Below are positions 1 to 48,879 of a DNA stretch of 64,000 nt, piece after piece. How positions within the stretch are numbered: the first letter of the stretch is position 1; the number at the start of each line of letters is the position of its first letter. The stretch comes from Spiroplasma tabanidicola (GTDB lineage Bacteria; Bacillota_I; Bacilli_A; Mycoplasmatales; Mycoplasmataceae). The position numbers and the translations under genes were made by a program. Location of the stretch: assembly GCF_009730595.1 (NCBI RefSeq), contig NZ_CP046276.1:806001-870000 (forward strand), read 5' to 3'. A model generated the notes under the pieces. That model was not told where the DNA came from, searched no databases, and saw nothing but the letters and a program-made list of their open reading frames with translations.

Positions 1-962
1 TCTGAAAGTTTTGAGTTTTTTAAAAAATGTTTAGATAAATCTTTTTCTTCTGCCATTTTTTTTACCAAAACTGTTTGATAAACTAAATAAGAATTGATAG
101 CCCCTATAAATAAAACTATAGCGATTGAGTTGAATACCATTTTTGCTCATTTAGGAGTATTTGCAAAAACATTCAAGAATTTATTAGTTCCAATATTACT
201 GATTGATAAGATTGCAACTGCATAAACTATATAAACTATTGCAACAATTATTACTCCTACAAAAATAACTCGTGGTGTAGTTTTTTCGGGGTTTTTTGTA
301 TCTGCTGCTACATAAGTTGGAATTTCAGTTCCTGAATATGAAAACATAGTCATTGTAATTGCAGGAATTAAAAGTGATCCTCCAATATAAGCATCTTTTA
401 AATTTTGCTTCATAGTATTAGAACTTAATAAATCATCGTTTACTCCATAAATTAAAGCTAGTATTAAAATAAACAAAATTGGTAAACTTTTAATAACAAG
501 AAATACTATTTGACTATTATAACTAAAATTTCTAATAAATATTTGACTACCTCCAATAATAAATAATATAAAAATAGATATAAACTTTCATAAATATTCA
601 TTATCGTATCCTGAAAATTCTTTAATAATATTTGTAATTGCCAGACTAGCTGTTGCTATTGCAACAGCTGATACAAATAACATTAAAACTCATCCTAATC
701 AAAAAGCCATAACTTTTCAGTTTGCCCTTCTTAGTCAACTATATGCTGTTCCATTTTCTTTAAAAGAAATTGTTGGTTCTACCATTATAAATGTTTCAGG
801 TAAAATTATAATTCCACCAATAATTCACGCAAATATCATTAACAAAGGATTGTTTTGACTTAAAGCAAATACACTTCCATAAGTTAAAATAATACTAGTT
901 CCAATTGTTGCAGTTAAAGTCATTGCTAAAACTGTTCAAAAACCCATTTTTTTATTTTTCAT
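1..962 (-). CDS. Amino acid permease (APC family), 3' end cut by the window
   Basis: A multi-pass membrane carrier for amino acids, probably a proton symporter in the cell membrane. About 320 residues are visible, with alternating hydrophobic segments from the N terminus (MKNKKMGFWTVLAM, then a TATIGTSI stretch in the position of the APC glycine-rich TM1 loop) to the window edge. It reads through several TGA codons as Trp. The start codon lies inside the 3' end of the upstream hydrolase (11-base overlap), so the two are probably co-transcribed. The substrate cannot be told from sequence. Confidence 0.8.
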
Positions 963-2119: not shown

Positions 2120-3436
2120 TCTACTTTGAACATCTAAAATAAAATTGACAGTAAAAAAGTACTTTTATTGTTAAAATTTAATTGAAAGGTGTTCTTTTTA
2201 TACGGCAAAACAATGATCAAAACAAGAAAAAATTAACATAGTTAATGAGGCAAAAGAAGTTAGAATAATTAATACTGCAGTGAAATTTAATTTAAGCACC
2301 AGTACTATTAAGAGATGAAAACATGAAATAAGAACTAAAGGTGAAGGTGCTTTAGAATGAGGTAATGGAGTTCAAGCTAAAAGTAATATTAAGAAATTCA
2401 AATCTCATGATTGGTTATTTAAAGATCCTGATGATATGAGTTTAGAAGAATTGAGAGAAGCGTTAAAATTAGAGCGCGCTTTAAAAAAGCATTTGGCGAA
2501 AACTGTTAAGGAAAAGTACTTCGCCATTTTTAATGCGAAAAAGTGTTTTTCATTAAAAATAGTTTGTGAATACTTAGGAGTATCAAGATATGGTTATTTA
2601 AAATGATTAAAGACAGGTAAACCTAAATACAAAAACTATGATACAAAAATTGCTAACAAAATCATTTATATACATAATCTTTTTAAAAAACGTTATGGCT
2701 ACAATATGATTACACTCATGTTAAATAAGTATTTTAAAATGAACTTAAAACCTTGGGTTGTATACAGATATATGAAAATATTAGGCATTAAGGCAGTCAA
2801 AAAGAAAAGAGTACCGATTATGATAAATCAGGTCCATTAAGATTTAAAAATATTTTAAACAGAAATTTTAAAGCAAATAACTTAAATGAAAAATGGGTTA
2901 CAGATGTTACTTACATTAAAACAAGTTCAGGGATGGTTTATTTATCAGTCATTAAAGACTTATACAGTTCAGAAATAGTAGATTGAAAACTTTCTAAAAG
3001 ACCTGGTAATGAACTTTGCCATACAAATTTAAAATCTGCAATCACAAAAAAAGTTAAACCAAAACTTATTCATTCTGATCAAGGTTCGCCATACACAAAT
3101 GAAACTTGAAAATATTTATGTGATTCTAATAATATAAAGATTTCTATGTCGAGAAGAGGAAATTCTCCTGATAACGGTGCATGTGAATCGTTTTTTGGAA
3201 CTTTAAAAAACGAGTGTATTTATACTTATAAAGTAAATGAGCTAAATTATTCTAATATATATAATGTAATTTCTGATTATATTGAGTTTTATAATTACGT
3301 AAGACCTATATTAAAGTATAAAAAAACTCCATACAAATTCGTATGGAGAAAGTATCTTTTTAATGTCAATTTTAATTGACAAGTTCAACTTAAGTTTCTT
3401 TTTTCTTTTCTAATAACTATTTTTTTGCAACTATAA
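2120..3436 (+). mobile_element. IS3-family insertion sequence, copy A (decayed)
   Basis: About 1.3 kb containing one fused IS3-type transposase reading frame. Imperfect terminal inverted repeats are visible: the left one at about 2122-2157 and the right one at about 3359-3393. They share TTGAAC and AAATTGAC blocks and match at roughly three quarters of positions. The right repeat lies inside the 3' end of the transposase frame. The boundaries are approximate and I could not identify a target duplication. The copy is broken by a frameshift. Confidence 0.7.
2202..3436 (+). pseudogene. IS3-family transposase, one frameshift and no canonical start
   Basis: Helix-turn-helix N terminus (KINIVNEAKEV...STSTIKRW) followed in the same frame by the HTH_21-like part and an rve integrase domain, so OrfA and OrfB are fused. 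The integrase catalytic acids are visible as WVTDVTY, HSDQGSPYT and, 35-36 residues later, CESFFGTLKNE. A single missing base near 2818 shifts the frame: the first part runs to a TAA at about 2838-2840, and the second continues to 3436. The expected start position reads ACG (2202-2204) after a GAAAGGTG ribosome site, so the start codon is probably mutated too. Inactive unless a suppressor or a sequencing error is involved. Confidence 0.8.
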
Positions 3437-3615
3437 ATTGTAAAATAAATGTGCATGGTTATGCAAATGCTTGAAACTAAAAATGAGTTAGATCAACATT
3501 ACAAATGTTTTTAATAGCAATTTTTAATAGAACTTAGTTTTAAACTAAGATCTAAATAAAAAATAACAATTTATTAAAATGCTAAATATACTTTGTCAAG
3601 TATACATAATGTTTT

Positions 3616-4869
3616 TTATAAGAATGTTTCAACATAGTTTGAAACATTCTTTTTATTTTGTGTTAGTTTTAAATAAACATAGGCTGGTGGGGTTTTATGT
3701 TTTACCATTATTCTTTCATAATTATAAAATTCTATGTAATTATCAATTGATTTTTCTAAATCTAAAAAGTTATTTTGTTTTAGTTGTTGTTTTCATTCTT
3801 CTTTTAATGATGAAAAAAAAGTTTCACACATTGCATTATCTATAGAATTGCCGGGCCTAGATAACGAAATAATAATATTATTTCTTTTAGCATATCTTTT
3901 CGCAAATATAGAAGTGTATTGATTTCCATTGTCAGAATGAATCATAAGCTTTTTAGATAAATCATTTCTATAAAAAGATGCCTTTTCAAGCGTTTTTCTA
4001 TATAGTTCAACATCATTTTTTAGTGATAATTTATGACCAACAATAAAACCAGTATTAGCATCTTTAATAATGCTTAAATAAGCAAACTTTTTATTAAAGG
4101 TATATAAGAAACATCAGTTACTCAACATTCGTTTTTTAAAAATATTGATCAGTTTCTATTGACGTAATTTGGACCATGAGTAATTGTTTTAATTTCTTTT
4201 GGCTTTCTATACATTTTTTTTACCCTTATAATTGAATATAATTTGAATATTTTCATAATCCTAGCTACTTTGGTTTGACTTACCTCTAAACCTTGATTAT
4301 TTAAAATAATTCTAATTCTAGGTGATCCATATATTCCATTATTATTTGTAAAAATATTTTTAATCTTAAGAGCTAGATTCATATCAATTTTTAAATCATA
4401 TTCTGGTTTACCTTTACAGCATCATCTATAATAACTTGCTCTTGTAATTTTAAATAGTTTACATAATGATAAAACAGTGTACTTATTTTTATATTTCTCT
4501 ATGGTTTTATAGTAATTTATTACTCTTTTTCTGAATCCTCCATTAGTTCACTGAGTTTTTTTAAAATTTCATTCTCCATTTCTAGTCCTTTTAATTTTTT
4601 ATTTAATTCTGCTATTTTTTTATCTTTTGAATTTTTGAATTAATCTTAATTTTACCATTGTGCTTGTTGTGCTTTCCATTTTTAGAAATAAGTGCTGCTT
4701 CTCTATAAATTTCTCAATCTATAAACATCCTTCTAGCTGCTGAATAAGAAATGTTATAAATCATTGATAATTTTTTGTAAAAAATATGCTCATTGAAATG
4801 TTTATTCACAAGATCTTTTTTAGCGTTTAAGTCTAAAATTGTTGATTTGTTGCCTTTATGATTTGCCAT
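3616..4869 (-). pseudogene. IS3-family transposase OrfA/OrfB with two extra frameshifts
   Basis: OrfA starts at 4869 (MANHKGNKSTIL, helix-turn-helix). It breaks at 4612 because a run of A has five bases where six are needed. The leucine-zipper part of OrfA resumes in the next frame and ends with EDSEKE-stop. OrfB follows in the -1 frame across an AAAAAGA stretch (4524-4530), as is usual for IS3 programmed frameshifting. OrfB has a second defect near 4093, where a T run is one base short just after VTDVSYIP. The remaining integrase part contains HSDNGNQYTS and CETFFSSLKEE and ends at 3616. Not functional as read. Confidence 0.8.
3620..3651 (+). terminator. Strong hairpin with T-run inside the 3' end of IS copy B
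   Basis: A 13-bp perfect stem (3620-3632 with 3639-3651, 6-base loop) followed on the plus strand by a T-rich run. On the plus strand it looks like an intrinsic terminator that would stop transcription entering the element antisense to the transposase. On the minus strand the same stem lies in the last codons of the transposase. Confidence 0.6.
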
Positions 4870-6094: not shown

Positions 6095-7264
6095 TTATAA
6101 ATCATCTTTTATATTATTTTCTATTGATAAATTTTTATACATTTTTTTCAATGAGTTATCTTTTTTCATGACTTCTAAATATTGATCATGAAGTTTTTTT
6201 ATTATTTCAAATAGTTTTGTCATTTCTTCATCATAATTTTCTATATATTTTAAAATTTTTTTTAAGATATCAATTTTCTTGTCATAACTACTAATCATTT
6301 CAAAAAGATTCATATAATTATCAATTGAATAAATAATAGCAGTTAATGTACTTGGACCTGCAATTATAACTTTACTTTTAAATGCATAATCTATCAATTG
6401 AGTTTGCTCACATAAAAAAGAAAATATACCTTCACTTGGCACAAACATTACAGAATAAACCGTTTTATCTTCTTCACTTATGTATTTCTCGGTTTCTTTA
6501 ATTCTGTTTTTACAATCGTTAATAAATTCATTCAAATATTTTTTATACTCTTCAGAAGAAAGATCTAAACCTGACAACTTTTCAAAAGCATTAAATGGAA
6601 ACTTAGCATCAACTGGAATATTAATAAATTTTGTAGAATCACCTTTTATAAATAAATCTACTATTAAACTTTTGTTATCATTAGTTTTTTTTATCATTTT
6701 ATATTGGGCTTCGTATAAAATATTATCAGATTTTTTTAGATTGACAATATTAGATAAAATTCTTTCTAGCATGTATTCACCGGCTTTACCTGCTTTATTA
6801 TTTTGACTTAATAAATTATCTAAACGACTAACCTTTTCTTTAACTTCGCTAATTGGTATAGTTTTTTCATTTATTGCTTTTAATGCTTCTTCTAGTTTTG
6901 TAGTGGAACTATCTAATTTATTTTTTGTTTCGTTTGCTTGTTTTAAAATAAAATCTCTAACTTGTCTTTCGGTATCATTTAAGTTTTTATCTGATTTTGA
7001 AGAAATATCACTTAAAAATGTTTTAAGATCAGACTCTGATTTAGTAATAGTATTTTTTTGTTCACTTATTATATTGCTTAATAAAGTATTTATATTAGTT
7101 GCTCTTTTTTCGTTTTCAAGTTCTAAATCTCTTTTTAGAATTTCTATATCATTTTTGTCTACACCTTCTATTTTTACATTACTTTTTCTAGTGAAAAAAA
7201 TAATCATGAAGATTGATATCAATATTATTACAATTGATAATAAAACTATAATTACAGTTTGCAT
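6095..7264 (-). CDS. rmuC: DNA recombination protein RmuC family
   Basis: A 389-residue protein with one N-terminal membrane segment (about residues 4-25), a long charged coiled-coil region (about 45-130) and a C-terminal RmuC domain (about 150-370; VDAKFPFNAF and VMFVPSEGIFSFL are typical). RmuC proteins limit DNA inversions and have a restriction-endonuclease-like fold. It lies 81 bases downstream of the PLD/helicase gene on the same strand. It could be the third member of that cluster, or simply the next gene. A clear AAAGG ribosome site precedes the ATG. Confidence 0.85.
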   Translation of the reverse strand: MQTVIIVLLSIVIILISIFMIIFFTRKSNVKIEGVDKNDIEILKRDLELENEKRATNINTLLSNIISEQKNTITKSESDLKTFLSDISSKSDKNLNDTERQVRDFILKQANETKNKLDSSTTKLEEALKAINEKTIPISEVKEKVSRLDNLLSQNNKAGKAGEYMLERILSNIVNLKKSDNILYEAQYKMIKKTNDNKSLIVDLFIKGDSTKFINIPVDAKFPFNAFEKLSGLDLSSEEYKKYLNEFINDCKNRIKETEKYISEEDKTVYSVMFVPSEGIFSFLCEQTQLIDYAFKSKVIIAGPSTLTAIIYSIDNYMNLFEMISSYDKKIDILKKILKYIENYDEEMTKLFEIIKKLHDQYLEVMKKDNSLKKMYKNLSIENNIKDDL

Positions 7265-7345: not shown

Positions 7346-9859
7346 TTATAAATCATATTTGTTTAATATTTTACATATATTACTTATATAATGATTTCTT
7401 AATAATTTTTTATTATCTTCATAAGATAACTCATTTGGAAAAGAAGAATTGCCACCAACAATTACATCCGCTAAAATTTTACTTCTAGCAAAAAAATAAT
7501 CATTTTTAATCTCAAATAAACTATCAAAATTTTCAGGTACATTTAATTGATTTCAAACTTTTATTACATCTTTATCTATTAATTTTCTTTTATAAGGATA
7601 TATTCAAGAGTTTTTTAGTAAAATATAACCATTTTTAGTTTTTTTAACATAAGCTGTTTTATTTTCTTTAAACTTTTTATATAAAATTTTTCCTTCTTGT
7701 ATATATTTTGCATTAGGAAATACAGATAAGCTATAGTTATATGGCAGTTGATTAATCTTTCTTTTAGAATATTCATTAATTTTTTCGATGTTATTATGAA
7801 TATATGTGATTTTTAAATCATCTTCCGATTTAGTAATCTTTAAAAACTTTAAAATATCAAATTCAGAAAAATCTAATCCATTATATTTGTAGACAAGATT
7901 GTAAGATGTATCATTTATATCAAAAATACTTAAATTATCCCCATTAACTTCATAAATCTCATATCATCATCTACTATTTTTATCAAATATTAAAACAAAA
8001 TCCTTATTGGTTTCTGATAATATTTCAAAACATTTTAAATCTCAAACTATGTAATTAGATAAACTATTTTTATACAGAACATCTTTTTGCTGTTTTAATT
8101 TTTTTAATAACTCATTGTAACTTAATTCATCAAAATCAAATGTTAAACCTGAAAATTTAGTACAGTTGTTATCAACTAATTCAACTAACTGTGTTTCAGT
8201 GATTAAATTGCAAAATCTATTTAATCAGTAATCTTTTATTTCTATATTTGTAGCTATATCAATGACTTTTAATTTCTTATCATTGAACTTTCTTAAACCT
8301 CTCCCTAATTGTTGCAAATATATTGTTTTAGATTGAGTTGGTCTCAAAAAAATAACACTATCAATTTCAGGTATATCAATTCCCTCATTTAAAATATCAA
8401 CCACACAAAGAAAATTTAATTTTTTGTTAATAAATTTATCTAATTTTTCAGATCTATTTATATCATCTGACACTAAGTAATCTGAATTATAGCCGTTGTT
8501 AATTAAAATTTCATTAATTCTTTTTGCATGTTCTATATTTATACAAAATATTATAGTTGTAAAACAATATTCTAAATATTTTCTAATTGCATCTAAAACT
8601 AAACTATTTCTTTTTAAATTATCTGCTTTCAAAAGCAACTTAACTTCACTGTTTAAATCATCTCTTGTAAGTTTTATTTCACTTTTATCATGCATTAAAT
8701 AATAATTTATTTCACAAACTAGTTTTTTTTCAATTGCTTCATGTAATTCCATATGATACAAAACATTATCAAATATATTTGTTATACTTTCTAAACCTTG
8801 TCTTCTTTCAGGTGTTGCTGTTAAAGCAATATTATTTGTCGGATTAAAATACTTAAAAATATAATCAAAAATATTTGTTTCAGATTCATTATCAAAATGA
8901 TGAGCCTCATCATAAAAAATAATATCAAACTGATTTTTATTAAATTTATTTTTATCAATTAGATTTTTTAATAATTTATTAGTAACAAAAACAGATTTAT
9001 TTTTTATACTTTCAAAATCAATAATTTTTTGATTATTTGTATCAATTAATACTGGTTCAAAACCTTTTACAATTTGTTTGAATCTATTAAAAGCATTATT
9101 TAAAATTTCTGTTCTGTGTGTTGTGAATAATAATTTTGGTTTATCAATTACATCTTGTAAATGCAAAAACATAAAAGCTGCAACAATAGTTTTTCCAGTT
9201 CCTGTTGGTAAAATTACACTATGATTTTTATACTCAAAAAGATCTTCTTTATACTTTTCAATTATTTCTTGTTGATAATCTTTTAATATAAAACCACTAT
9301 TATCATTTTCTTTATCTCTAAAAGGATTAAAATAGTTATTTTCCATCTTAATTCAATCTTCCTTTGATAACTCTTTAAAATTAACTAATTTATAATTACC
9401 TTGTTCATTTCACATATATTCAATCTCATTTAATAAGTTTTGTTTGCTTTCATTAGATTGTAACGAAGAAATTTCTTTGCCATATAATCCTCTATATGTA
9501 AAATTTGCACTTCCTAAAATGATATCAAAATCATTTTCATACATAAAACCATAAATTTTTTTATGTAAAGGTTTCTCTCCTCTTTTAACAATTTGTACTT
9601 TAATTTCAATATTTCTTTTATACTTTTTGCTTATATAAAAAAGATCATCATAATTAAATGACTCTCCACTTTCAGTAAATGTTGAAGTTATAATTTTTAA
9701 TTTTCCATTTCTACCAAAAAAATCTTCAAGTTCCTTATCAAATTCATAAAATGCTTCCTTGGTTATAAAAGGACTTATTATATAAAAAGTATTTGTTTTA
9801 TTTATAAAGCTTTTAATAGCTTCTACTAAACTTGTAGAACTTAAATCAGAATAATGCAT
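7346..9859 (-). CDS. PLD-nuclease / superfamily 2 DEAH helicase fusion
   Basis: An 837-residue protein read through TGA codons at the domain junction. Residues 1-149 form a single phospholipase-D-like module with the H-x-K motif (H99, K101) and GSAN (116-119), as in PLD-family nucleases. The helicase core follows, with Walker A LPTGTGKT at 217-224, DEAH at 317-320, TATPERR near 348, and motif VI QQLGRGLRK at 516-524. The C-terminal 290 residues are not recognised. The architecture is like ResIII helicases with N-terminal PLD domains seen in restriction and defence-type proteins. The upstream helicase/nuclease gene ends 17 bases before this start, so they form one transcription unit. A DNA target is inferred, not shown. 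Confidence 0.8.
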
Positions 9860-9876
9860 AATATATCCTTCCCTTT

Positions 9877-11757
9877 TTAATCATTAAGTTTATCTTTAAT
9901 ATACTTTGATAAATTTTCATCTATACAATAAATATAACATCCTTTGATCGCTCTTGTTAACAAAACGTTGTATGTATTTCTAACTATAAAATCTCCTATT
10001 TCAGAAGAAACTTTTGAATCAAGCTTTTTTAAACCTTTTATTGATTTGTCAGTAGATGCTCTTTTTGTTCAATCTGTTTCTATTTTATTATTTTTCACAA
10101 TCAAATCTGGACCTATAATAACTCCAACATAATCAATTTCTAATCCTTGAGAGGTATGAATACAACCAATTTGTTCAATAGAGTTTTTTTCAAGCATAAA
10201 ATACTTATCATTTTGTAAATTTCATTGCCTTTTAAAATTACCTATCACAATATCATACAGTTTTTTATCTTTTTTTGACACTCAATTTCAACAATAACCT
10301 GCCAATACCCTTGCTGAGCAACATTTAGATTTTTTAACAATTGCTTCATACATATCTTGTGGGTTATCAAAAACTTTAAAATCAAAAGCGTTTCTAAATG
10401 ACATATCACATTTTAATCCATCATATAAAATATTATCTATAAATTGAATATAGTCATCTGCACCACTAGATCTAAACTGAGAAGTAAGTTCTTCAAATTC
10501 TAATATATTTTCATCTAAAATTCCTTCTAATTTAGCTTGTCTTTTAATTTCTTTAATTGTTCCAATATCACTATTAGTAACAAGTTGTTTTTCATCTATA
10601 AAAAAAACCGAAACTCTAGATTCACAAATTATTTCTCTAATTTGATTATTGTAGCCTTTCCCAATAGGAGTATATTGACTTCTTTCAATTAGCCTATGCG
10701 ATTCATCAACTATTGTTAAATCATAATGATTTTTAAGCAAATCAGAAAATATAGAAGAGCCTTTAAACAAATTATCTAATCTAACTTTTGTAAATTTTTT
10801 ATCCTCATTTTTATCTAAAATTAGTTTTTTAAACGCTTCTCTTACAGAAGCATTTTTAGAACAATATATTGCATTTTGTTCTTTTTGAATACAACTAGAT
10901 AATACTTTTAAAGCTATTAGTGTTTTACCAGTACCCGGTCCTCCAGGCACTATTAAAACTCTTTTTTTATTATCTTTTTTTGATTTAACAGATAAAGAAA
11001 CTATTTTTTCATATACAACTTTTTGATCATCTAATAAGTAAAAATCACTATTATTATCAATAATTTCACGCATACTATCTTGAATTGATTTACCTGGCCT
11101 TATTTGACCATTATCTATCTCATCTATAAGTTGAGCATTATCACCACTTATTAAATTTTCTTTAATATAATCTCTTAATTTCTTAAGATCTTTTTTAAAG
11201 AATAAAGGTGCATCATATAAATAATCATTATATTGACTATCAATTATATCAGGATGCTTATCAACATCATAATTATGCAAAAAAGCACATGTTAAAACTT
11301 CTATATTTTTATTACTATAAACCACTTCTGAAAAGTCATTCAAAAATCTTCCATACGCAAAAGCTTGATAAGATGGGTGACTAACTTCTCTTCTTCTTCC
11401 TCCGACATAAGTGTCAACAATCATATCACTACCTATAACTTTTATACACTCTTGTCATTGTTTCAATTCAATTATTATAATTCTTCTTTTTTCATCATTT
11501 AATCCTGACAAAATAATATCAATTCTCTTACTACTTCTTGGCAAATTATATTCTATTGCTACTCCAATATTTTTACTAATATCGTTATCTGAAAAAACTA
11601 TTCTCATTTCTCTTAAGGAATTATTTCAACTATTTTCTTCATTAATATTTACTTTTTTATTCATTTTAAATTTAAGTTCTTCTTTAATTTTTTCAATTAA
11701 AATACCATTATCTACATCTTCATTAAATCCATCAACGTTATTTCTATAAATTATCAT
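9877..11757 (-). CDS. PD-(D/E)XK-like nuclease fused to DUF2075 (SF1-type) helicase
   Basis: A 626-residue protein. The N-terminal 100 residues carry a restriction-nuclease-like pattern: E69, then KRID with D80, then IIIIELKQW with E97 and K99, which is the D...ExK spacing. The P-loop part has GPGTGKT at 272-278, Walker B TIVDESH (D350/E351), a QFR motif typical of SF1 enzymes, a TSQGLE segment and a late LLTRA motif. This matches DUF2075 ATPases. It is the first gene of the pair with the PLD/SF2 helicase and is closed upstream by a terminator at 11827-11859. Its start has no strong ribosome site nearby, so initiation is less certain. Confidence 0.8.
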
Positions 11758-11826
11758 AAATACCTCTTTTACAAATTATTATATATATTTGTTAATAAAT
11801 TTGTAATAAATAATTAATTAATAAAA

Positions 11827-11859
11827 AAACCTAATCCTTCAAAATAACAGATTAGGTTT
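11827..11859 (-). terminator. Intrinsic terminator after the PTS operon
   Basis: A 10-bp perfect stem (AAACCTAATC, 11827-11836, with 11850-11859) with a T-run on the minus-strand side. It closes the sugar-transport operon and separates it from the nuclease/helicase pair. Confidence 0.8.
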
Positions 11860-11876
11860 TTAAAAAATTAATTATT

Positions 11877-12092
11877 TTATAACATTAAAGGACTTATAAT
11901 ACAAAATAATAATATAAATATAGAGCATGTGTAAAATGCAACTGGTAAATTTCTTATGAAGTTACCAAAAAAACCTTTTTTTGTTATGCTTAAACTAAAA
12001 TTTTTTTTGTTAACAATAAATATTTTAATTATTATGCCTATAACCAAAAATATTATAGAAAGTATTAAAGGAACAAAAATTTTAACTAACAT
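11877..12092 (-). CDS. Small two-helix membrane protein
   Basis: A 71-residue hydrophobic protein with two predicted membrane segments flanking a basic loop (VNKKNFSLSITKKG). I chose the ATG at 12092 because a GAGGTG ribosome site sits 7 bases upstream, rather than the upstream in-frame codons. It overlaps the preceding gene by 11 bases and is the last gene of the PTS operon. No family recognised. Confidence 0.55.
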   Translation of the reverse strand: MLVKIFVPLILSIIFLVIGIIIKIFIVNKKNFSLSITKKGFFGNFIRNLPVAFYTCSIFILLFCIISPLML

Positions 12093-12810
12093 ATTTAAAC
12101 ACCTCTTCATAATCATTATTAAATTTAATATTTTTATATTTCACAATCTTTGTATTAACTTCTTCTTTTAAATTTTTTAAAGGTTTTAACAATAATTCAA
12201 AATCTTCAACTTTAATTAGAACATCACTGCCATCTTCATAACTTCTACAAATAACACTTTTTACTTCTATATTTTTACTAATTTTATTAAGCAAATCTAT
12301 TGTTTTTTTTGTATTCAAAGTACAGTTATGATTTAAATAAAAATAACTATTAATATAAGAAAGTATATTTACATATCCTTTTCTTATAATCTCTATTTTT
12401 TGCTCTTTAACAAAAAATATAATAATTTCTTTTTTTCTTAATTCTATATAAACTTCATTTTCTTCTTCTATCAAAGAGTTCAAAAAATCTATTTCAGAAA
12501 TCATCTCTATATTATCTTGTTTTTTTAAATTATATCTATTTACAAACTTAAAGTTTTTTATATTATTTGTTTCTAATAATTTAAATATTCTTACTTCAAA
12601 ATCTTCAAAAGAATTTATTTTTCTATTTTCGCTAAAATTTATAGCTAACATATTTATGTTTTCTTTTAATTTTTCTGTACAACCATCACCTATTTCAATT
12701 ATTTCATTACTTAATAAATTTCTTAGTACCATAGCATTTTCTTTTTTAATAAGTTTTTTACCTTCATAAATATTAATTACATTTCAGTCAGCATCAATTA
12801 TATATCCCAT
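12082..12810 (-). CDS. Unknown protein with weak MreB-like N-terminal pattern
   Basis: A 242-residue soluble protein. The first 80 residues follow the order of an actin-like MreB N terminus: a YEGKKLI strand, an IIEIGDGCTEKL segment where MreB has its VGEEAK-ML motif, an NINMLAIN stretch, and then FEDFEVRIFKLLE where MreB has IADFEVTE-ML. The nucleotide-binding loops of real MreB (GTANT and the later phosphate and adenosine motifs) are not visible, and the protein is about 100 residues shorter. If related, it is a degenerate or repurposed actin fold. The start has a GAGGTGAT ribosome site. Its ATG overlaps the stop of the phosphatase gene (TAATG). Similarity is by eye only. Confidence 0.35.
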
Positions 12811-13310
12811 TATAGATCACCTCAGTTTGTGTTCATTTTATTTGCTATTTCTTTAAATGGGAAATTATTTTCCAAAAATTTATAAACTCCTAAGTTTAAT
12901 TTCATATACGGATAAAAATCTTTTATATATTTTTTTAAAGCCTGTTTAAAATTATCATGTGGTAAAACTTTCATAACAACTAGAAAAATGAATATAGTTG
13001 AAGCACTTCTACTAACACCTAGTTGACAATGAGTGTAAATATTTGTCTTTTCACTATTTTCAATTAGGAATTTAATTGCTGGTACAAACAAATCATTACA
13101 AAAGTCATCAGGATCATGTGAATCTTTCATATTAATAGCCATTTTATCACCACTTAAAATGAAATATTGATTTTTATAGTTATACTCTTTTTTAGAATTT
13201 AAAATATTATAATATATGTCACCTATTTTTAATTCACATTGATGATCAATTAAATTTAAAGAAAATTGATCGCCAAGATAAATGTTATTTAAAATATTTT
13301 TAAAAGGCAT
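12810..13310 (-). CDS. Dual-specificity (cysteine) protein phosphatase
   Basis: A 166-residue protein with the cysteine phosphatase signature HCQLGVSRSAS (C95, R101), typical of dual-specificity phosphatases. An acidic DSHDPDD loop at 63-69 could supply the general acid. The frame ends with a TGA read as Trp (NWGDL-stop). The stop of the PTS gene overlaps its ATG (TAATG), and its own stop overlaps the next gene, so three genes are translationally coupled. The substrate is unknown. In this context a phosphoprotein or phosphosugar linked to PTS control is plausible. Confidence 0.85.
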
Positions 13311-14944
13311 TAGCTTTCAACTCCTAATTTTTCTCTAACTATAGTTGCTATGTTTGTAACTCTTGGTCCATATATTATTTGCATTTGATCACCAATTTCA
13401 GCATATCCATAAGGTTTTGTTTTATCAACCAATTCTTTGTTAAACTTACTTTTATCAAACATGGTTACTCTAAGTCTTGTGACACAATTTGCCATTATTT
13501 TAATATTTTCTGGCCCTCCACAACCATCAATAATGTTTTTTATAAATTCTTCATCATATTCTTCTTTTTTATTTTTTGTACTAGATTTTATTTTTTTATT
13601 TACATTTTCTGATTGATCAACTTTTTTTAAATCTTTACCAATAACAGCAACTTTACCATCTCTACCTGGAGTTTTAAGATTTAGTTTTTTTATCAATATA
13701 AAGAATGTACCGAAATATAATGCCCCCATTATAGGTCCAACTACAAATAAACCTCATACGTTTTGAATTTTATTTCAATTTATGGCATCTACCGCTAATC
13801 AAGTTATTATACCGCTTCCTCGTGTGCTAACTTGAGCAAAATTACATACGTACATAATCATATAAGTGAATCCTGTAAAGAAAACATGGATACCATATAA
13901 TATTGGAGCTGAAAATAAAAATGTGAATTCTAAGGGTTCTGTAGTTCCAGCTAACATTGATGCCAATAAAGCTGATATTATGGCACTACCAACAACTTTT
14001 CTATTTCCTTTTGGAATACAGAAGTACATCGCTAATGCAGCACCTGTTAAACTAAATATATTTGTAGGAAATGTTCCATTAACAATTCAAGTGTCTTTTG
14101 CTTTTATAAATTCTCCTGATCCTAATTTAGCTATAGCAATGTTGTATATTCCTTCAATTTTTTCTCCAGAAGGAGAAATTCATTCTCCACCTACTGATGT
14201 ATAATATAAGAAATAATTTAAAACTTGATGTAATCCAAATGGAATTAAAGCCCTATTTGCGACTCCATACAAAAATGGAGCTCCTGCATCTAAATATTGT
14301 CAAGAATTCCCAACAGCTTTTAAACCTTGAGAGATATATATTCATAAAATACCAAGTGGCATACCAATGATTCAAGCAACCAAAGTTGAAGCAACCGGTG
14401 AAAATCTTGGGCCTCCAAAAAATGATAGAAACTCTGGAAATTTTAATTTATAAGTTAATTTATGTATATAAAATCCTAATAAACCTGCTATCATACCTCC
14501 AAAGGCACTATATTGGAATGATGTTACTCCAAATCTTGTAGAAAGACCAAATTCTTTAGGTGTTTTTAACATCTCTGGATATACACTTTGTAGCATTAAG
14601 TTTGCTGCAAAGTGAATTGCTGCATATGCCATTAATCCAGAAAGTGCTGCTGAAACTTTTTCTGATTTTGCAAGTCCAGCTGCTAATCCAACAGCTACTA
14701 AAAAGTCAATATTAGATATTGCAATCATACCAATGTTTTTTATTGCATCAAATGCAATTTTTACATTTCCTGTATATGTTCCCGCTTGTGTAGCAATTGC
14801 TTGTCCTGCATATCCAATACTACCAATTAACGCTAATAATGGAATAACAGTAACAGGAACTAAAATAGCTCTTCCAAAACCTTCAAGTGAAGAACGTAAT
14901 TTTCCAAAAAAATGTTTGTAATTTATTTTTATACTTTTATTCAT
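13310..14944 (-). CDS. PTS sugar transporter EIICB component
   Basis: A 544-residue phosphotransferase permease of the glucose/maltose/N-acetylglucosamine superfamily. The EIIC membrane domain spans about residues 1-430, with GTTEPLEFTF near 315, the conserved substrate-site region of this superfamily. A lysine-rich linker follows, then an EIIB domain with the phosphorylation cysteine at about 487 in ANCVTRLR. There is no EIIA domain, so phosphate must come from another protein. An RpiR-type regulator lies upstream, 90 bases away. The exact sugar cannot be told. Confidence 0.9.
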
Positions 14945-21220: not shown

Positions 21221-22645
21221 ATGAAAAAATTATTAACATTATTAGCATCAATCGGACTTGTAAGCACAGCTTCAACTGCAATTATTGCATGCAATAACAC
21301 CACACAAGATGTTATTACTGATTTAAATAAAATTTCTAACAAAGATTTAAAAACACTTGTTGGAAAAGATCAAACACCAAGTCTTGAAAGCATTGTACAA
21401 GCAATCAATTGATATAATGACAATATTAGTTTAACAGTTGATGAGGTTGAATTTAGCGGTGAACCTACCACTTCAAAAGCAACTATAAAAGCAAAAGATG
21501 ATGCAAAAATCTTTAAAGGAAAAGTTAATGTAACTTACAATTATAGTGTTGGAAATGCTTTTAGCATTTCAATATTTGAAGATGCAATCAATAACGTTGG
21601 ATTTGGAGCAAGTTTAAGACCAAATAGCTATAATTCAGGCTTTTTAATGTCTTCAAACTTACAAAATAGATTAGTTGTTAAAGATAGTTTAAAAAAATTT
21701 GTTGTAGAACTTGCAAAAAAAGCAAGTAGTTATGTTGCTTTTACAGCAGATCAAATTATGGATATGATAGATATCAATTATAGAGATGGACAAAATAAAT
21801 CAATTATAGAAACAGATAAAGAAACAAAAATTGAAAAACTTTATATAACTGTAAAAGATGGCCACCAAAATGATATTAAAAATTATATATCTTATGGAGT
21901 TGCAAAAATTAATTTAAAAGAACAAATAGACTTAAAAACAGCTGCAACTCAAAAAGATTTAGGAAAAATAACTTTTATAAACATGGATTATGAAGAAGAC
22001 CAAAAATCAAAAATTATTGTAGAATTCATGAATAAAAATTCTAATATCACTGTGGATAATGCCAGTCAATTTTCTATATCAAATTATAATTTAAAAGGTG
22101 GATTTGCAACAATAAATAATGGATTTAACGGTAGTTACACTAATGAAGTTACTGTTAAATTCATTGCTGATATTCAAAATAATGAGAATATTCAAAATTG
22201 AGATTTATCAATTATGAGCAATAGTCCAAATAGCGAAGAATGAACTGATTGAAGTTTTTTTGATGCAATGAAGCTAAAAAAAGATCCTAATTCAAGCGCT
22301 TTAAACGATGATGAATTAACTACTTTAATAAATTATATAATGAGTTTAGAAGATAGCGAACCTTACTCAATGTATTGAATTCAATTTAATGAAGGTAAAA
22401 AATATTTTTTAGATACACAAGGTAGTGGCGAAGAACAAGGTAAAGTTAAATTTAGTGATTTTAAAAATGATTTTTTATCAATATTTGATGTAACTGTTAA
22501 TACAAACGATGTGCCTTCTGAAAACGAAGGACCATTTGATGCAACTGGTTCTATAACAATAGAAGTTAAAAAAGGACAAGAAAATAAATACTTAGATAAA
22601 GGATATATTTTATCTGGTAAATTAAAAACTTGATATAGTGTATAA
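21221..22645 (+). CDS. Lipoprotein, unknown function
   Basis: A 474-residue surface lipoprotein. Signal peptide MKKLLTLLASIGLV with lipobox AIIAC and Cys24, then DLNKISNKDLKTLVGKDQTPSLESI, a repeat-like opening found in related lipoproteins. The remainder is rich in beta-type segments (GSYTNEVTVKF, GSITIEVKKG). An AAGGAG ribosome site precedes the ATG, and a terminator follows the TAA. It is convergent with the giant permease gene and shares that terminator. Confidence 0.8.
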
Positions 22646-22650
22646 AAAGA

Positions 22651-22676
22651 AAAAAGTGATAAATTTATCACTTTTT
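22651..22676. terminator. Bidirectional terminator between convergent genes
   Basis: A perfect palindrome (AAAAAGTGATAAA and its complement) with T and A runs on both sides. It lies between the stop of the lipoprotein gene (22645) and the stop of the permease gene (22686). Confidence 0.85.
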
Positions 22677-22685
22677 TTATAAAAA

Positions 22686-25600
22686 TTAATCTATTAGAAT
22701 TGTTGGTGATTCAGTTCTAATTTTTTTTGTTGTTAAGACAATTGCCCCCACATAAGAACTTACTATTAAAACTGAAGAAACTATTGGAGTTCACCACATA
22801 AATCCAACAGGTATAGAAACTAAGTATGTAGAAACATATTGAAGCACATAATAAACACATAAATAACTTAATGCTGTTGCTAATACAAACAAAATTACTG
22901 AAAAAATGGTTACAAATTTAAATGTATATGTAATAATTTCTCGATTTGAATACCCCATTGATTTCATAACAACCATAAATTTCTTATATTGATTTACATA
23001 CAAATCAGAAATTAAAATTATTGATAATGTAGAAATAATAATAGTAAATGCTATAAAGAAAGCTCCAATTGTAATTATTAATGAAGATATTTGATTAACT
23101 AAGTTTTTTTCTTCACTAATAAATTTTGTATCTTTAATTTCTGTTGTTGCTAAGAAATTATTTGGAGCATTAACTGAATAATCTCCCATTTTTGGGTTCA
23201 TTGAAAATGAAGCTTGTGTACTCATAAAATAAGGTTCTTTAGAGTTTAAATAACTTCCATTGTATCATAAATGGGGTTTTACTGATTTTTGTTCTTCACT
23301 TGAACCAAACATTCAGTTATTTTTATTTGATTCACTAATTTGTGATTCAGGTGTATTTATTTTATAAGTATCTATATTTACCCCTTCTCCTGCTTCATAT
23401 TGTCCTGAAGGATTATTTTTATCTTCATAACTAAAATCAAATGGTAAATATCTAGCTGTACTATAACCATTAATTAAGTTTACTAAACTTTGATCTGCAA
23501 CAATCATACTATCTCCATAAACCGAAATATCATCATATTTTTGAAGATTTATTTTACTTACATTTTGATTTGAAATTTTATTTCATTCTATTTGTACATT
23601 ATTAGATATATTAATTGGATTATCTGATCTTGCAAAAGCATATTCTAAGAAACTAGTTCTAATTGTTGTTAAGTTGCTTGTTTCACTACCAGATAAGTTT
23701 GTTTTTGGTTTTGAATAAACATTTGTTGGTTCAAAATAATACGAATAAGGTCTAATTCACAAATAACTACTTGGACTATAACCTAAAGTATTTTTTCAAT
23801 CATTTATTGTATCATCTGGAACTTGTGATTGATCTACTTGTCCATATCATGCATCTTTATACTTATTATTTCCTAAACTTAAAATATTTTTAAAGTCATC
23901 ATATTTTTCATATGGTATAAATAACATCACATTATCATATTGATAATATGGTCTAATTGATGCTTTTAATTGTTCTTGATCATTTATGTTAACTTGTTCT
24001 AGGTTATAAAAACCATATGCATCATCAACAATTTTTTTTGCTTTTTTATATCTATCAAATCCATCAATATAAAAATCATCTCCTGAAATATTATCTTGGG
24101 TTTTAAATATTGGAGCATAAGTAAATTTTGAGTTACTTAATGATGCAGGATCAAGTCAACCTTTGTTTTGACTATTTACTATTGAATTATTATAACTTTG
24201 ATAATCTCTATCATCATATTTTCAAGCACTATTTGGAATATTTATTCCATCTTTTGTTAAAGTAAATCTAGTTACATTTGTTTTAACATCTTGAATTTGA
24301 CTATCTTTAAACTCATAGTTGATACTTGATTGTTTATTTGCAAGCACTGGAATATTTAAAGTTTTTGAATCAATATCATAAACTTTTATTCCGTTTATAA
24401 TTAAGTTTTCTTTTGGAATAACTCTTCCATACAAAATATTTTCGATATCTTTAATATCTTTATCACTTAAAAAAATATTATTTGCACTATTTGATATTTT
24501 ATAAGCACTTTGAGTTTTATCTAAACCTGTGACTAAAGGATTATCTTTTTGATTGTTCATAACTACTTTTGTATAAAAGGAATCATCTTTTGGTATATAT
24601 GAGTTAAAATCTCATCCAAAGCGATATTGATTTATTCTGTTATTAGATTGATTAACATAATTTCTTACATAAGCTGGAGTTTCAGCTAATATTATACTTA
24701 TGATTTTATCTTTTCAAGTTCCTTCAAATGCATTTATATCTATATTTGCAAATAAAGTTTTTAAAATTGGAGGTAAACCATTAGTTAATAAAGATGATAC
24801 TTGTAAAATTTTTTCTTTTCTTTGTTCTAAGTCATTATATTTTGGATTGTCTGAATGAATGATTCATTCTAATAATAATTGCACATCTTCAATACTAATA
24901 CTTTTTCCGATCATTTGAACTAAGTTGTTCCCAAATAAAGAAGTCATATATGAAATTATATTTGCATTATCTAATGAATTTCCATTTTCATCTTTTACAC
25001 CTTCAATTACTCTGTCATAGGTTCAATTATAATTAAGTTTATTATCAACTTTTTTATCTTCTGAAATTAAAATTTTTGGTATGACAGAATGTTCTGAAAG
25101 TGGTTGAACAGCAGAAGTAGATTTACCAATTAGTCCAATATCACTATCTAATACACCTTTTGTATCAATATAATTATTTTCATAACTCTCTACTCCATTT
25201 CATGGAGATAATGCTGTTTTTGAAAAAGGTGCATTACCTATTACATCAACATTTGAAACAGAACTTGAGTAATCAGCATTTTTATAATATTCATTTAAAG
25301 TTTTTTTAACAACTCCAGGCATTGACATGACTCCTGAAATTAAAAATGAATTTAAAAATATTGTAATAGCAGTTAATAAAGTTTTTGAAAAACCATTAAT
25401 AGCAAGCTCAGTACTAAACTTTGTAGAAAATGATTGTTTATAAGTTAATACTTTTTTTAGTGTTTCTAAAAACTTATTTCTTTTATTTAAACTTTGATCT
25501 GTTGCAATTTCTAATACTGGTTTTTTTACTAATAAATATGCAACAAGATATGAAACTCCTAATGTTAAAATACCAAATATACTAAATGAAGCTAAAATTG

Positions 25601-28133
25601 CTTCTCAATCAAAAGTTGATTGCCAATAAGAACCTCCAGCATAAGAAATAAGTAAACTTACTATGGCTTCTTGGCAAAATGCAGAAATAACTCAAGCAAT
25701 TGGAACAATTATAAACGAAGAAATAATTCCATAAGATAAATATGATACAGCAATGTGAGAATTTTTTGAACCCATTGCTTTTAAGATTGATATTTCTCCA
25801 GCATTTAATTGAATTGTTTTTTTAATTGCAATTAAAGTAGCAGCAAGTGCTATCAATGCAATTAAAGTTGCAGCTAAATATGAAAATATTTGAAATGTTT
25901 TTGTAATTTTTGGCGCTAATGTCCAATTGTATGCAAAATTTGAACTATCAAATGTTTTATACTCTTCAAAATTTTTATTAAATGATGCAAGTAAATCTTG
26001 TGTATTAATACTTTTATTAGTTTGATTTATATTTTGACTAACTTCTTGTTTAGCATTGTAAGACTGATATAAATATCACTCTTCTGACATCATATTTGAA
26101 TAGTAATCTAAAACTTGTAATTCACTCTTGTTTTTTTCATTTGCAGTAACAAAATTATATAAAAATTTAGAAGTATATTTTGCATAATCATTTGTTACAA
26201 CTTGTGCTAAAGTTTCTTGAGTTCCATAAACAATTACACTTTTTTTACTATTTGGAACTGGTATATTTATATCTGCAATAGGAAAAAAAGTTAATGGGTC
26301 AACTCCAAAACCACTGATTACAAAAGTAGAACCTCCTATTGAAATAGTTGAACCTAGCTTATAATTATTTGCTTTTGCAAATTGCGGATTAATTATAATT
26401 TCATTTGATGCTGTAGGAAAGTTTCCAGAAACTATTGACAATCTTGATTGTCATTGATCATCTAAAACTATTAAACGATATTTCATTTCTTTTTGAGAAT
26501 CAGGAAAAGACATTTCTGCTCTTAAATCAGATTTAACATTTGACGCTTGTGCAACTATTTTATTTTTTAAATAAAATAGTTTTATATTATCAATATTGTT
26601 TCTATTTAACTCATTTTTTGTTGCAAATGTAGTAAAACCATTTTTTTCAACTAAATTTTCATTTAATGTAGAAGTTTCAGATTCTAATTTTAAAAGTTTT
26701 AATCTATCTCTTCTAATTACATTACCTGTTGGTTGATTTTTATTATCAACACTAACTACTAACTGATTTAAACTTCCTCTTATTCCCCTTTCATAATTAT
26801 CATCACTTTCATTAACATAATAATTTTTATAATTAATATTTTTATTTTCATTTAATGTATTTGACGCTAAATCAATTTGTTGCAAATATGGTAATTGATA
26901 TTTATTTTCTTCAACATTATATTGCATTTGATAAAGTTTATTTTTATAATCTTCATTTAAGTAATCTTTTTGATCTGAATATATATTTCCAAAAATATAT
27001 GTATATAAAACATTTGCGATTACTTTTCTATCATTATCGTTACTTGACTCATCATAATAAGCAAATCCTGGGTTTTCATTTGTATTTTTTAAAGCATCAA
27101 AAGTTTTTGTTAAAACTGTTTGATCAATAACTTTATTTTCTTTATCATTTTGTGCTATAAATATTGATAAGTCAATATAGTGTTGTACATAATCAATTGT
27201 GTTATTAATAATTTGTCCAATTAAAGTATTAAATGCAGATAATAAATATAAATCATATATAGATATATTTTCGTTTGTTAAAGGATTATTCTCATTAAAA
27301 ATTTGATTAAAATTACTCTCATTAATTATGTTATTTTCAAACAATTTATTATAAGTTGTTGTTTTTAAATAATCTTTTTTATCTTTTAAATCATTTAAAA
27401 AATTAGTTCTTAAAGCTAAAATTGTGGTTTGATAAAAATCTTTATATACTTTACTTTTAATTGAACTATTATCAATAAAGTCAGCATACTTTGTTAAGTT
27501 TGTAATTTTTAATTGATTATATTTTTCATAAGAATTTTTATACTCAATTTTTCCGCTATATTCATCATATTTATAATGAAAAATAGGTTCTAAAAAACTA
27601 TCACTAGATAATAGGTTAAAAAATGAGTTTTTCACTTCAGTTTGTCTAAAAGATTTTGCAATAAATGTATCAATATATTCTTTTTTATATTCATCAACAA
27701 AACTATTATCAATATTTTTTAATGAGAATTGATCTTGATTTTTTGATGCATTTCCAGATAAATATGTTGCATTTTCATTTAATGAAATTAAGTTAAAATT
27801 ATAACCAACTCCATTATTTGCTTGATTATATGTATCTAAATCACTAAATTTTTTTGCTAAAAATTGAAAATCTACAAAATCCATCATAGGAACAGATTTT
27901 AAATCTAAATTATTTACAGTTCCTACTTCTCTAGAAGAAACATAATCAAACTTATCCATTTTTGACATGACTTGTTTATAGTTGTTTATTATTCTTGTTG
28001 AAGCAGATAGAGATATTCCTAAAATTAATGAAGCTATAAAAGTTAAAATAATAATTACATAAAATTGAATTTTAAATTTATATACACCTTTTATTCCTTG
28101 TTTTAAATATAGGAATATACTAAACTTTTTCAT
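22686..28133 (-). CDS. Giant FtsX-like ABC permease
   Basis: A 1815-residue membrane protein read as one frame through many TGA codons. One N-terminal helix (about 22-43), a large extracellular region of some 500 residues rich in Asn and Tyr, a cluster of helices around residues 740-890 (FSYLAATLIALIALAATLIA, then ILKAMGSKNS, the MacB/FtsX hallmark), a second huge extracellular region, and a C-terminal helix cluster (about 1680-1815) with another VVMKSMGYSNRE. FtsX-type permeases normally pair with an ATPase, but none is adjacent. The size and extracellular loops suggest lipoprotein handling or surface mechanotransmission. Divergent from the next lipoprotein gene. Confidence 0.85.
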
Positions 28134-28228
28134 TATTTACCTACCTTTTGTTAATATATTTATACTTTAATATTAATTATAAGAAAATAACTTTTTTTAT
28201 ACAAAAAACTTTTAGTAAAATGCTTCTA

Positions 28229-28234
28229 TATAAT
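28229..28234 (+). promoter_or_regulatory. -10 box of the lipoprotein promoter
   Basis: A perfect TATAAT 19 bases before the ATG of the lipoprotein at 28254, with an AAGGAG ribosome site between. The -35 region is weak. Confidence 0.45.
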
Positions 28235-28253
28235 CTATTTAAGGAGAAAAAGT

Positions 28254-30830
28254 ATGAAAAAACTATTAGCAGTACTATGTTCATTATCAATATCATCAAC
28301 CTTATTTTCAGTGACTTCATGCTCGCTTGTAAATTATGAAAAACAATATGTAAAAAACAAAGTTAATTCACTAGTTGATATAGCAAGTTTAGCTTCTAGA
28401 AGTGCTATTTTAAATGATGTTGAGGGAATTGATGTTGATTATTTAAATACTTTTATTGGTAATAAAAAAATCAAAGATTTAGAACCTAATTTTAGTGCTT
28501 CAGATCAAGCATCAACAAGCAGTGTTGTTAACTCAGTTTTTGATAAAACTTTAGATAGAAGTTATTATGAAAATTTAGCTTCAAATAGTGAATATAATTT
28601 ATCAAGTAAAACTTCACCCAATTCTTATGCAGATTCAATTGTTGATAATGGTTTATTAATATTATCAACTATTAAATCATCTGGTGGTATAAAACCATCA
28701 CTTGGAGGAGTTATTGAGGGACTTATTCCTCAACTTTCTAGTATTTTTGGTAATTTAAAAAATGAATTTAATATTGATAAAAATTGATCTGATTCATTGT
28801 CTCAACTTGCTCCATATGCACAACAATTGATAAATGATTTAGATAAAACTAATCTAATTTCAACAATTTGTCGTTTACTTTTTAATATTAATTTTATAAA
28901 TGATAAAAAAGTGGATGATTCAGTTATAGATAATTTAACTCCAATGATTTTAGGAACTAATAGTGAAAAAGTTACCAATATTCCTTTTATTATTGAAGAC
29001 TATATCAATAATGTAATGTTTAAAGATTTTAAAGGACAATATAAAGATAAATTTAATGAAACTCATAAAATTGATTTAACTTTAAAAGTTGTTCAACAAT
29101 CAGCTTTGAGAAAATTAAATAGATTTTTATACAATTTAAGTGGAAATGAAGATAATAATTTGAAAGCAGAATTAAGTCTTGATGACTATTTACCTATTGA
29201 TAATTCAAGTTGATTTAGAAATAATTTAGCACAAAGTTTAGGATATATAATAAAAAACACTGACAAATTAAACTATGCTTCAATCTTAGAAAATATAAAT
29301 GATATTTTTTATATCTTATCAAGTTTAATAATCAATATTGGTTTATTTGATTTTGAACAAATCAATAATGATTTAAGCACTAATATAAGTGAAGAACATT
29401 TATTTGAAAAACAAAGAACAAATAAAGAAGTTTTTAAAGAATTAAATGATCAAAGCAATCAAAATCATTTAGTAATAAGTTTTAATAGTGAATTAGAAAA
29501 ACAAAATGGAATAATTACAAATAATATAAAAACAAAAAGAAAATTTAGTATATACAGTTTCTTAAAAAATATTTCACTTGCAATTAATCCAAATGCAGAC
29601 AAAGGAAGAGATATGCAAAGAATTTTATTTTTATTGTTATATTCTAATTCTCCAACTAAACAAGATTATTTAATACCAGAAAATTTAGGATTATTAGATG
29701 TTTTAAGTTTAGGATCAGATAAATTAGAACAAGAAGTTACAGGCACAGATAGTTTGTTAAATGGAGTTATTCAAGCATTAGGTTTTAAATTATTTGATAT
29801 TTTAAAAGATATAAGTCTTCCTGAATTTTTAAAAAATATTGGTGCTCTTGCTGCTTCAAGATTATTTGGGATAACTGGAGATTCAATAGTAAATGATAGA
29901 AGTATAATGGGATTGTCATCTTTATTAAAATTAATTAACTCATTTACAGATACTGGAATTAGTATTAGTGATGAAAGTACAAACAAATTACAAAATGGTT
30001 TTCAAGCCTTATGAAATAAAGACTCAAATGTTTTAACAGAGTTAACAGGATGAAAAATTAACAATAAATCTTTAAATTTTGTAAACATTTTTAGCATGGA
30101 AATAACTTCAGGTTTATATTTAAATACAATTTTAAAAATTTTTAGTGAAATTTATAATGAAAATAGTGAAGCTAGAAGCAAATATAATTCTGAAAAAGAA
30201 AAAAATCAGCAAGGAAATGTTAGTGATGGTATTAAAAAATTTGCATCTAGTGCTACAAATAAATTTAAAGTATATTTTAATAATAAAATAAATAGTGATG
30301 AAGGTTTAGTAAAAGATTTAAAAGGAACATCTGGTAATTCAAGTGGAGAGTATAATACATTAACAACTGCTTTATCATTAATGAAATATAATGGACTTGC
30401 ATTAAGAGATGATGATTATAAAAATAATAATCTTTCTTTTGCTGGATATAAAGGTTTAATGTATGCATTAGGTTATAAAGAAGGAGTTAATGAATTTAAA
30501 GACAACTCGATTTTAAAAGCAGCAGAAATAATTTTTGATGATAATCATTTCGAAAACATTATGACAAATACATTAGATGACTTTAAGTTTTTATCAAATA
30601 CAAAAAAAGAATATATAAAAGATAAAATTGAACCTTTAATTGATTCTAAAAACTTTGTTTCAAAACTACTTACATATTCTGAAATAGATAATAAAAATAT
30701 TTTAGGAACTATAAGTTTTGAAATTAGTTACACCCCTATAAATAAAAACATTTATAAATATCAAATTACATTAATGGAAAACTCTAAAATGGAAAATTGA
30801 AAAATTAGTGAAGTAAAAAAAATTGCTTAA
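28254..30830 (+). CDS. MOLPALP-like lipoprotein
   Basis: An 858-residue lipoprotein. Signal peptide with lipobox VTSC and Cys23. The body is a long, mostly helical, polar protein with leucine-rich segments such as LGLLDVLSLGSDKLE and LPEFLKNIGALAASRLFG, and a basic-acidic beta segment at the end. Paralogous in style to the lipoprotein at 31931. I assign it to the mollicute MOLPALP lipoprotein type from memory of its features. It is transcribed away from the giant permease and shares its last four bases with the stop of the convergent hydrolase gene. Confidence 0.65.
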
Positions 30831-31816: not shown

Positions 31817-31899
31817 ATATTTTTTCCTAACTTTATTTAATATTTTATAATAATTTAATAAAAAACAAAAATCTAGTTACAGTTAATTTTTTATAAAAA

Positions 31900-31921
31900 A
31901 ACCGATTTGTTATAATCGGTT
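31900..31921 (-). terminator. Intrinsic terminator after MOLPALP-like lipoprotein
   Basis: An 8-bp stem (AACCGATT, 31900-31907, with 31914-31921) followed on the minus strand by a run of seven T. It ends the gene that stops at 31931. Confidence 0.8.
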
Positions 31922-31930
31922 AAGTAATTA

Positions 31931-34126: not shown

Positions 34127-34141
34127 TGTATAACCCCTTTA

Positions 34142-48798: not shown

Positions 48799-48879
48799 AA
48801 CTAGCACCCACCTTTTATAAAATTATATCAAACAAAAATTGCAAATATCTATTATTACTAATAATATTTGCAAACAAAA

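Follow-up and report, generated by a model that had tools for sequence, protein, structure and literature searches.

A Schlafen-type nuclease-helicase gene beside a SauUSI-like gene in Spiroplasma tabanidicola, and the link of the nuclease-helicase family to MazG

Two adjacent genes in a 64,000-nucleotide stretch of Spiroplasma tabanidicola DNA, the whole of which is called the window here, encode a PD-(D/E)XK nuclease fused to a Schlafen-type helicase (P0001) and a PLD nuclease fused to an SF2 motor (P0002). We regard the two as anti-invader enzymes that form an accessory unit, most likely co-transcribed, and would degrade invader DNA, with a probability of about 0.6. The wider family of P0001 is most commonly accompanied by a different gene, coding for a MazG-type NTP pyrophosphohydrolase. 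This pairing seems undescribed in the literature searched and looks to us the more interesting result; against a background of the already known helicase family, SauUSI and Nhi, the MazG-DUF2075 pairing appears to be the new part.

Architecture and setting of the two genes

The coordinates, strand and 17-base gap given for the two genes in an earlier, sequence-only reading match the open reading frames exactly under genetic code 4 (Table 1), and the minus strand reads AAAAAGGGAAGGATATATT immediately 5' of the ATG of P0002, which provides a good Shine-Dalgarno sequence, GGGAAGGA. That reading also placed a terminator ahead of the pair, and there is indeed a strong hairpin with a U-tract, which a simple terminator scan did not pick up and which parts P0001 and P0002 from a conserved operon upstream. 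The catalytic sites that it assigned, a restriction-type D...ExK with an SF1 motor in the first protein and an H-x-K PLD site with an SF2 motor in the second, hold up in the comparisons below.

Table 1. Coordinates of the two genes, their domains and related features; plain numbers are window positions.
Feature	Location	Strand	Remarks
P0001, 626 aa	9877..11757	minus	intact ORF under code 4 (TGA=Trp)
P0001 N-terminal PD-(D/E)XK (RecB-like) nuclease	residues ~38-160		motifs, model
P0001 SF1 Schlafen-group-3 (DUF2075) helicase	residues ~240-613		Pfam, motifs, fold matches
P0001-P0002 intergenic stretch, 17 bases	9860..9876	minus	carries Shine-Dalgarno for P0002, read directly
P0002, 837 aa	7346..9859	minus	intact ORF under code 4 (TGA=Trp)
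P0002 PLD nuclease	H99-x-K101, G116-S-x-N119		Pfam PLDc_2/RE_NgoFVII
P0002 SF2 motor	residues 190-540		Pfam ResIII and Helicase_C
P0002 C-terminal domain	residues 545-837		no convincing HMM match
RmuC gene	6095-7264		81 bases downstream of P0002
Terminator-like hairpin and U-tract	about 11819..11866		-14 kcal/mol, z -3.8
Conserved upstream operon (PTS transporter, dual-specificity phosphatase, 242-aa protein)	12082..14944	minus	
Restriction-like cluster with P0002-type gene, G004	L035:5204-12991		
Restriction-like cluster with P0002-type gene, G030	L033:3678-13778		
Remnants, G075	L245:4077-4475 and 12947-14066		
Remnant, G030	G030:C1:952525-952926		
Solobacterium chain	L141		NUDIX(-13)PLD-SF2(5)MazG(3)DUF2075, spacing in bases
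Faecalicoccus pleomorphus chain	L145		PLD-SF2(12)NUDIX(-25)MazG(-3)DUF2075, spacing in bases
Further chain	L152		MazG(-3)DUF2075(21)PLD-SF2, spacing in bases
UPF1-like helicase near DUF2075 gene	L123:2501-5602		also L084, L093, L111, L114, L120

The helicase part of P0001 matches the complete Schlafen-group-3 (DUF2075) profile (PF09848; residues 265-613, profile positions 1-354 of 354, E 5e-90) and has the Walker A and B motifs and the motif VI arginine of that SF1 group. In an alignment of 54 homologues, drawn from bacterial, archaeal and viral sequences (the last as contigs), the start codon lines up throughout. R602, the SF1 motifs and the Walker motifs do not vary among them, nor do D80, E97, K99 and Q100 in the N-terminal part and P128, Q131 and Y135 of the RecB-type Q motif. 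The single-sequence model reached a pLDDT of only 30, and an AlphaFold model from the 54-row alignment was used in its place (mean pLDDT 90.8, pTM 0.91). In this model D80 on strand 78-87 is predicted to face E97 and K99 on strand 90-99, so that the proximity of the three residues, which the earlier reading had proposed as a check, comes out favourably, on what are apparently the two strands of one hairpin. The hairpin lies between helix 38-55 and the helix 128-142 that carries Q131 and Y135 (Q-x3-Y); this is the order of secondary structure of the PD-(D/E)XK fold, whose core runs alpha-beta-beta-beta-alpha-beta, and with the invariant D80/E97/K99/Q131/Y135 it places P0001 among the RecB-like nucleases. 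The best fold match of the model is the Dna2 nuclease-helicase, then RecD2, UvrD and SLFN11 (Z about 17-19 for the SLFN11/14 helicases), in a whole-model search that is dominated by the helicase part.

In P0002, residues H99, K101, G116, S117 and N119 of the PLD site, together with the DEAH-box DE and the QQLGRGLR of the motor, are retained in all 14 aligned proteins. Its best PADLOC model is mREase_IV (E 8e-42), and the structure of the type IV restriction enzyme SauUSI (PDB 7clg) aligns with residues 14-544 (E 2.4e-41) in an alignment that ends at residue 565 of 953. P0002 thus shares the fusion of a PLD nuclease to an SF2 motor with SauUSI, but its C-terminal domain cannot be aligned to SauUSI and, unlike SauUSI-type neighbours elsewhere, lacks the DUF3427 region that would correspond to the target domain (PF11907, no match at E<=10). 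Relatives with the same C-terminus were found in 5 of 392 genomes at E<=1e-100 (G000, which is the window's own genome, G016, G030, G004 and G011), and among the 392 the full-length P0002-type proteins are confined to the window's own Mollicutes family.

The PTS/phosphatase operon is kept in G001, G004, G010, G013 and G018, and the DNA behind it has a different content in each of them, which places the pair in a variable slot; that of G013 holds a decayed PLD-SF2 gene and a C5 methyltransferase. RmuC, encoded on the other side of the pair, is usually regarded as a housekeeping recombination protein. Its own distribution in the genus is patchy, with matches at E<=1e-20 in 8 of 20 genomes, and RmuC was hence of no use for an empty-site comparison, for which the PTS/phosphatase operon was used instead. 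Two seemingly broken transposase-like stretches in opposite orientations lie some 2 kb away from RmuC (window 2280-4128), and further off the window contains a number of lipoprotein-like genes of very large size, along with a gene for an 1815-aa permease-like protein (21221-36228 and 46246-48807).

Distribution of the two families and recurrence of the pair

Matches to P0001 are present in 14 of 60 relatives and matches to P0002 in 32 of the 60, contrary to the suggestion in the sequence-only reading that small mollicute genomes rarely keep such genes; their distribution is accessory and of a defence type. At E<=1e-40 P0001 homologues occur in 73 of 392 genomes of the phylum, and most complete genomes in the window's genus and family lack the gene. 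The 80 P0001-family loci kept represent many bacterial phyla and archaea, and homologues are also carried by plasmids, phages and viral contigs; viral and genome contigs gave matches to an alignment query and none to pattern scans with single proteins. In a tree the P0001 of the window joins that of G016 (weakly) and then that of G003, within a clade of its own family. This distribution is patchy in the manner of mobile defence genes. On a plasmid of Hymenobacter canadensis (L038:8001-11987), two DUF2075 paralogues stand in tandem, preceded by genes for a restriction enzyme and a methyltransferase.

The exact pair is intact in a single other genome, G016, in which the P0001 and P0002 homologues are 67% and 52% identical to those of the window and have the same order and tight spacing. 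Decayed remnants of both genes were found within one genus (G030 and G075), a P0001 remnant in G030 lying directly behind an intact P0002-type gene. Most members of the P0001 clade (G003, G017, G006 and G062) have P0001 without P0002, so that cooperation of the two is not obligatory, and a fixed two-gene system was rejected because P0002-type proteins flank only few P0001 homologues.

A broader association is apparent in a census of the neighbours of 146 loci of the DUF2075 nuclease-helicase family, a set that was assembled by homology and whose members are not entirely independent of one another. At 9 of these loci a SauUSI-type PLD-SF2 enzyme is encoded within 4 kb of the DUF2075 gene, where about 0.5 would be expected from a background density taken as uniform in the spans searched and with genome sizes roughly averaged, a comparison that overstates significance since defence genes cluster anyway. 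NUDIX genes are equally frequent (9/146), and the two are jointly the next-commonest neighbours. Seven of the nine PLD-SF2 loci are same-strand chains, in operons from Bacillota and Bacteroidota that sometimes include NUDIX; MutT-type genes next to SauUSI homologues have been noted before in Streptococcus (PMC7641849). The PLD-SF2 proteins near DUF2075 genes outside the window's family belong to a different subfamily from P0002 (24-31% identity), with a DUF3427 C-terminus in the two that were scanned, and the association therefore has either two or more origins or an ancient divergence behind it; its recurrence in other phyla argues that the pairing is more than coincidence. Of the module that had been proposed, the operon-like layout stands, and so does recurrent co-occurrence at the level of PLD-SF2 with DUF2075; its definition by these two genes does not, the intact pair being found elsewhere in G016 only and MazG adjoining the DUF2075 gene at 73 of the 146 loci, against 9 with PLD-SF2.

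Defence context and proposed function

Nhi (nuclease-helicase immunity) of Staphylococcus epidermidis and AbiO are single-chain defence proteins, as P0001 would be. A PADLOC run on both proteins, advised in the earlier reading, returned partial AbiO and PDC-S41 matches for P0001 beside the mREase_IV match of P0002. The AbiO model aligns with the helicase part of P0001 (E 5e-11); the Nhi model aligns with the helicase part of P0001 relatives (E 1e-15 for L138) and gave no match to P0001 at E<=1 and none in G000. These models cover only part of the helicase of the family, in P0001 and its relatives alike, and the N-terminal nuclease of P0001 lies outside any match. PDC-S41, which is only a candidate system, matches P0001 partially (E 1e-23) and in some relatives includes the N-terminal part, but it is a weak match for the full-length protein and its library entry names no MazG partner. 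The substrates of Nhi are phage replication intermediates, which it degrades irrespective of sequence (PMC11084316, PMC10732053); it is described further in PMC11811056. P0001 resembles the Dna2/RecB-type nuclease-helicases in combining RecB-like nuclease motifs and an SF1 motor in one chain, and differs in being accessory, patchy and much smaller, with a Schlafen-type helicase. That helicase (PF09848) is common to Nhi, AbiO and the human Schlafens, among them Schlafen 11/14; P0001 shows no Schlafen N-terminal RNase core and has a PD-(D/E)XK nuclease instead. Human Schlafens act in antiviral defence.

Genes near members of the P0001 family include those of SIR2-HerA, BPTD_3080-type restriction, Druantia, ABC-3C and type I restriction-modification systems, as well as C5 methyltransferases and MrcB. 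In G017 (L027:8801-13509) the gene of a P0001 homologue (60% identity) follows, after 31 bases, a SIR2-like and HerA-like gene pair with the composition of the known SIR2-HerA defence system. From this context and the distant similarity to Nhi and AbiO, a defence role for the pair is likely; an antiphage interpretation had been put forward before, and its domains, residues, layout and defence-type distribution are sustained here, though not these two genes as the module.

It is doubtful, although worth serious consideration, that P0001 and P0002 are two independent, stand-alone defence genes that came to be neighbours in a variable slot, with no functional coupling. P0001 homologues are mostly without P0002, some P0002-type proteins lack P0001, and the slot behind the PTS operon varies in the genus, as its decayed PLD-SF2 gene and C5 methyltransferase in G013 illustrate. 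However, order and tight spacing have been retained in G016 at 52-67% identity, and chains of MazG, DUF2075 and PLD-SF2 genes with spacings of about -28 to 21 bases are present in L141, L152 and L197; coupling of the two proteins is plausible.

We think it improbable that P0002 serves as restriction subunit in a complete restriction-modification system, with the methyltransferase encoded elsewhere. Its relative in G004 (38% identity) does lie directly behind a C5/N4-N6 methyltransferase fusion and ahead of a Z1 gene, the P0002-type gene of G030 is beside an Eco57I-type methyltransferase, AIPR and Z1, and G000 has two C5 methyltransferases about 255 kb from P0002. Yet neither G000 nor G016 has a methyltransferase next to P0002, as an operon of type I, II or III would, and in G016 nothing matched PF01555 and nothing exceeded the cut-off for PF00145. 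More improbable still is a role of P0001 in DNA repair or replication, as a Dna2/RecB-like nuclease-helicase with MazG as a nucleotide-pool sanitiser. Dna2 as first fold match would fit such a role, and a MazG partner with NUDIX nearby suggests nucleotide hygiene, but the absence of P0001 from most complete genomes of its genus and family speaks against it, as do homologues on plasmids and phages, often among restriction genes.

We read the P0001-P0002 pair as a reduced, sequence-independent unit for the degradation of invader DNA, and infer its mechanism as follows. P0001 belongs to a wide RecB/Dna2-like nuclease-helicase family for which a MazG nucleotide pyrophosphohydrolase may often be the working partner. 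It probably loads on phage or plasmid DNA that is single-stranded or broken; it would translocate by its SF1 motor and degrade the strand with its PD-(D/E)XK site, needing no sequence-specific mark, in the manner described for Nhi. P0002 would be a SauUSI-like, ATP-driven PLD restriction enzyme in which the choice of target probably falls to the unique C-terminal domain, and cuts made by P0002 would supply P0001 with ends to work on.

MazG, the usual neighbour of the nuclease-helicase family

The commonest neighbour of the DUF2075 gene is a MazG-type protein of 105-115 aa, encoded at 76 of the 146 loci and directly adjacent (within 150 bases) at 73, always on the same strand; it lies upstream in 59 cases and downstream in 18. 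These proteins match the Pfam MazG-like and MazG families, and E33, E36, E56 and D59 are invariant in 15 of them. The pairs occur in Bacillota, Bacteroidota, Pseudomonadota, haloarchaea, Woesearchaeota and a Microcystis phage, and within the Mollicutes in G110 and G043. There is no MazG gene beside P0001 in the window; a profile search of G000 (A2) found none elsewhere in the genome either, and none was found in the other members of the P0001 clade among the 60 genomes searched. The nuclease-helicase has thus persisted without MazG in this lineage, which would have lost the partner.

Our literature search found no pairing of a DUF2075/Schlafen protein with MazG or another nucleotide pyrophosphohydrolase, many journals lying outside its coverage. 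DefensePredictor (PMC13092281) lists the MazG domain among predicted, untested defence domains, with no partner named in the text. We tentatively propose, as a possibility with odds somewhat against it, that MazG and the PD-(D/E)XK-Schlafen-helicase form the core of an undescribed bacterial and archaeal defence system that couples nucleotide destruction to DNA degradation, with PLD-SF2 and NUDIX as extensions and the window as a MazG-less, PLD-SF2-extended form. The presence of MazG with the nuclease-helicase at about half of the 146 loci, in bacteria and archaea alike, makes this a compact and directly testable hypothesis. It gives accessory MazG proteins a concrete partner, and raises the question of whether nucleotide depletion or sanitising supports DNA degradation in phage defence. 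A UPF1-like helicase (AAA_11/AAA_12) of about 1000 aa, encoded near the DUF2075 gene in six loci, is a possible further partner.
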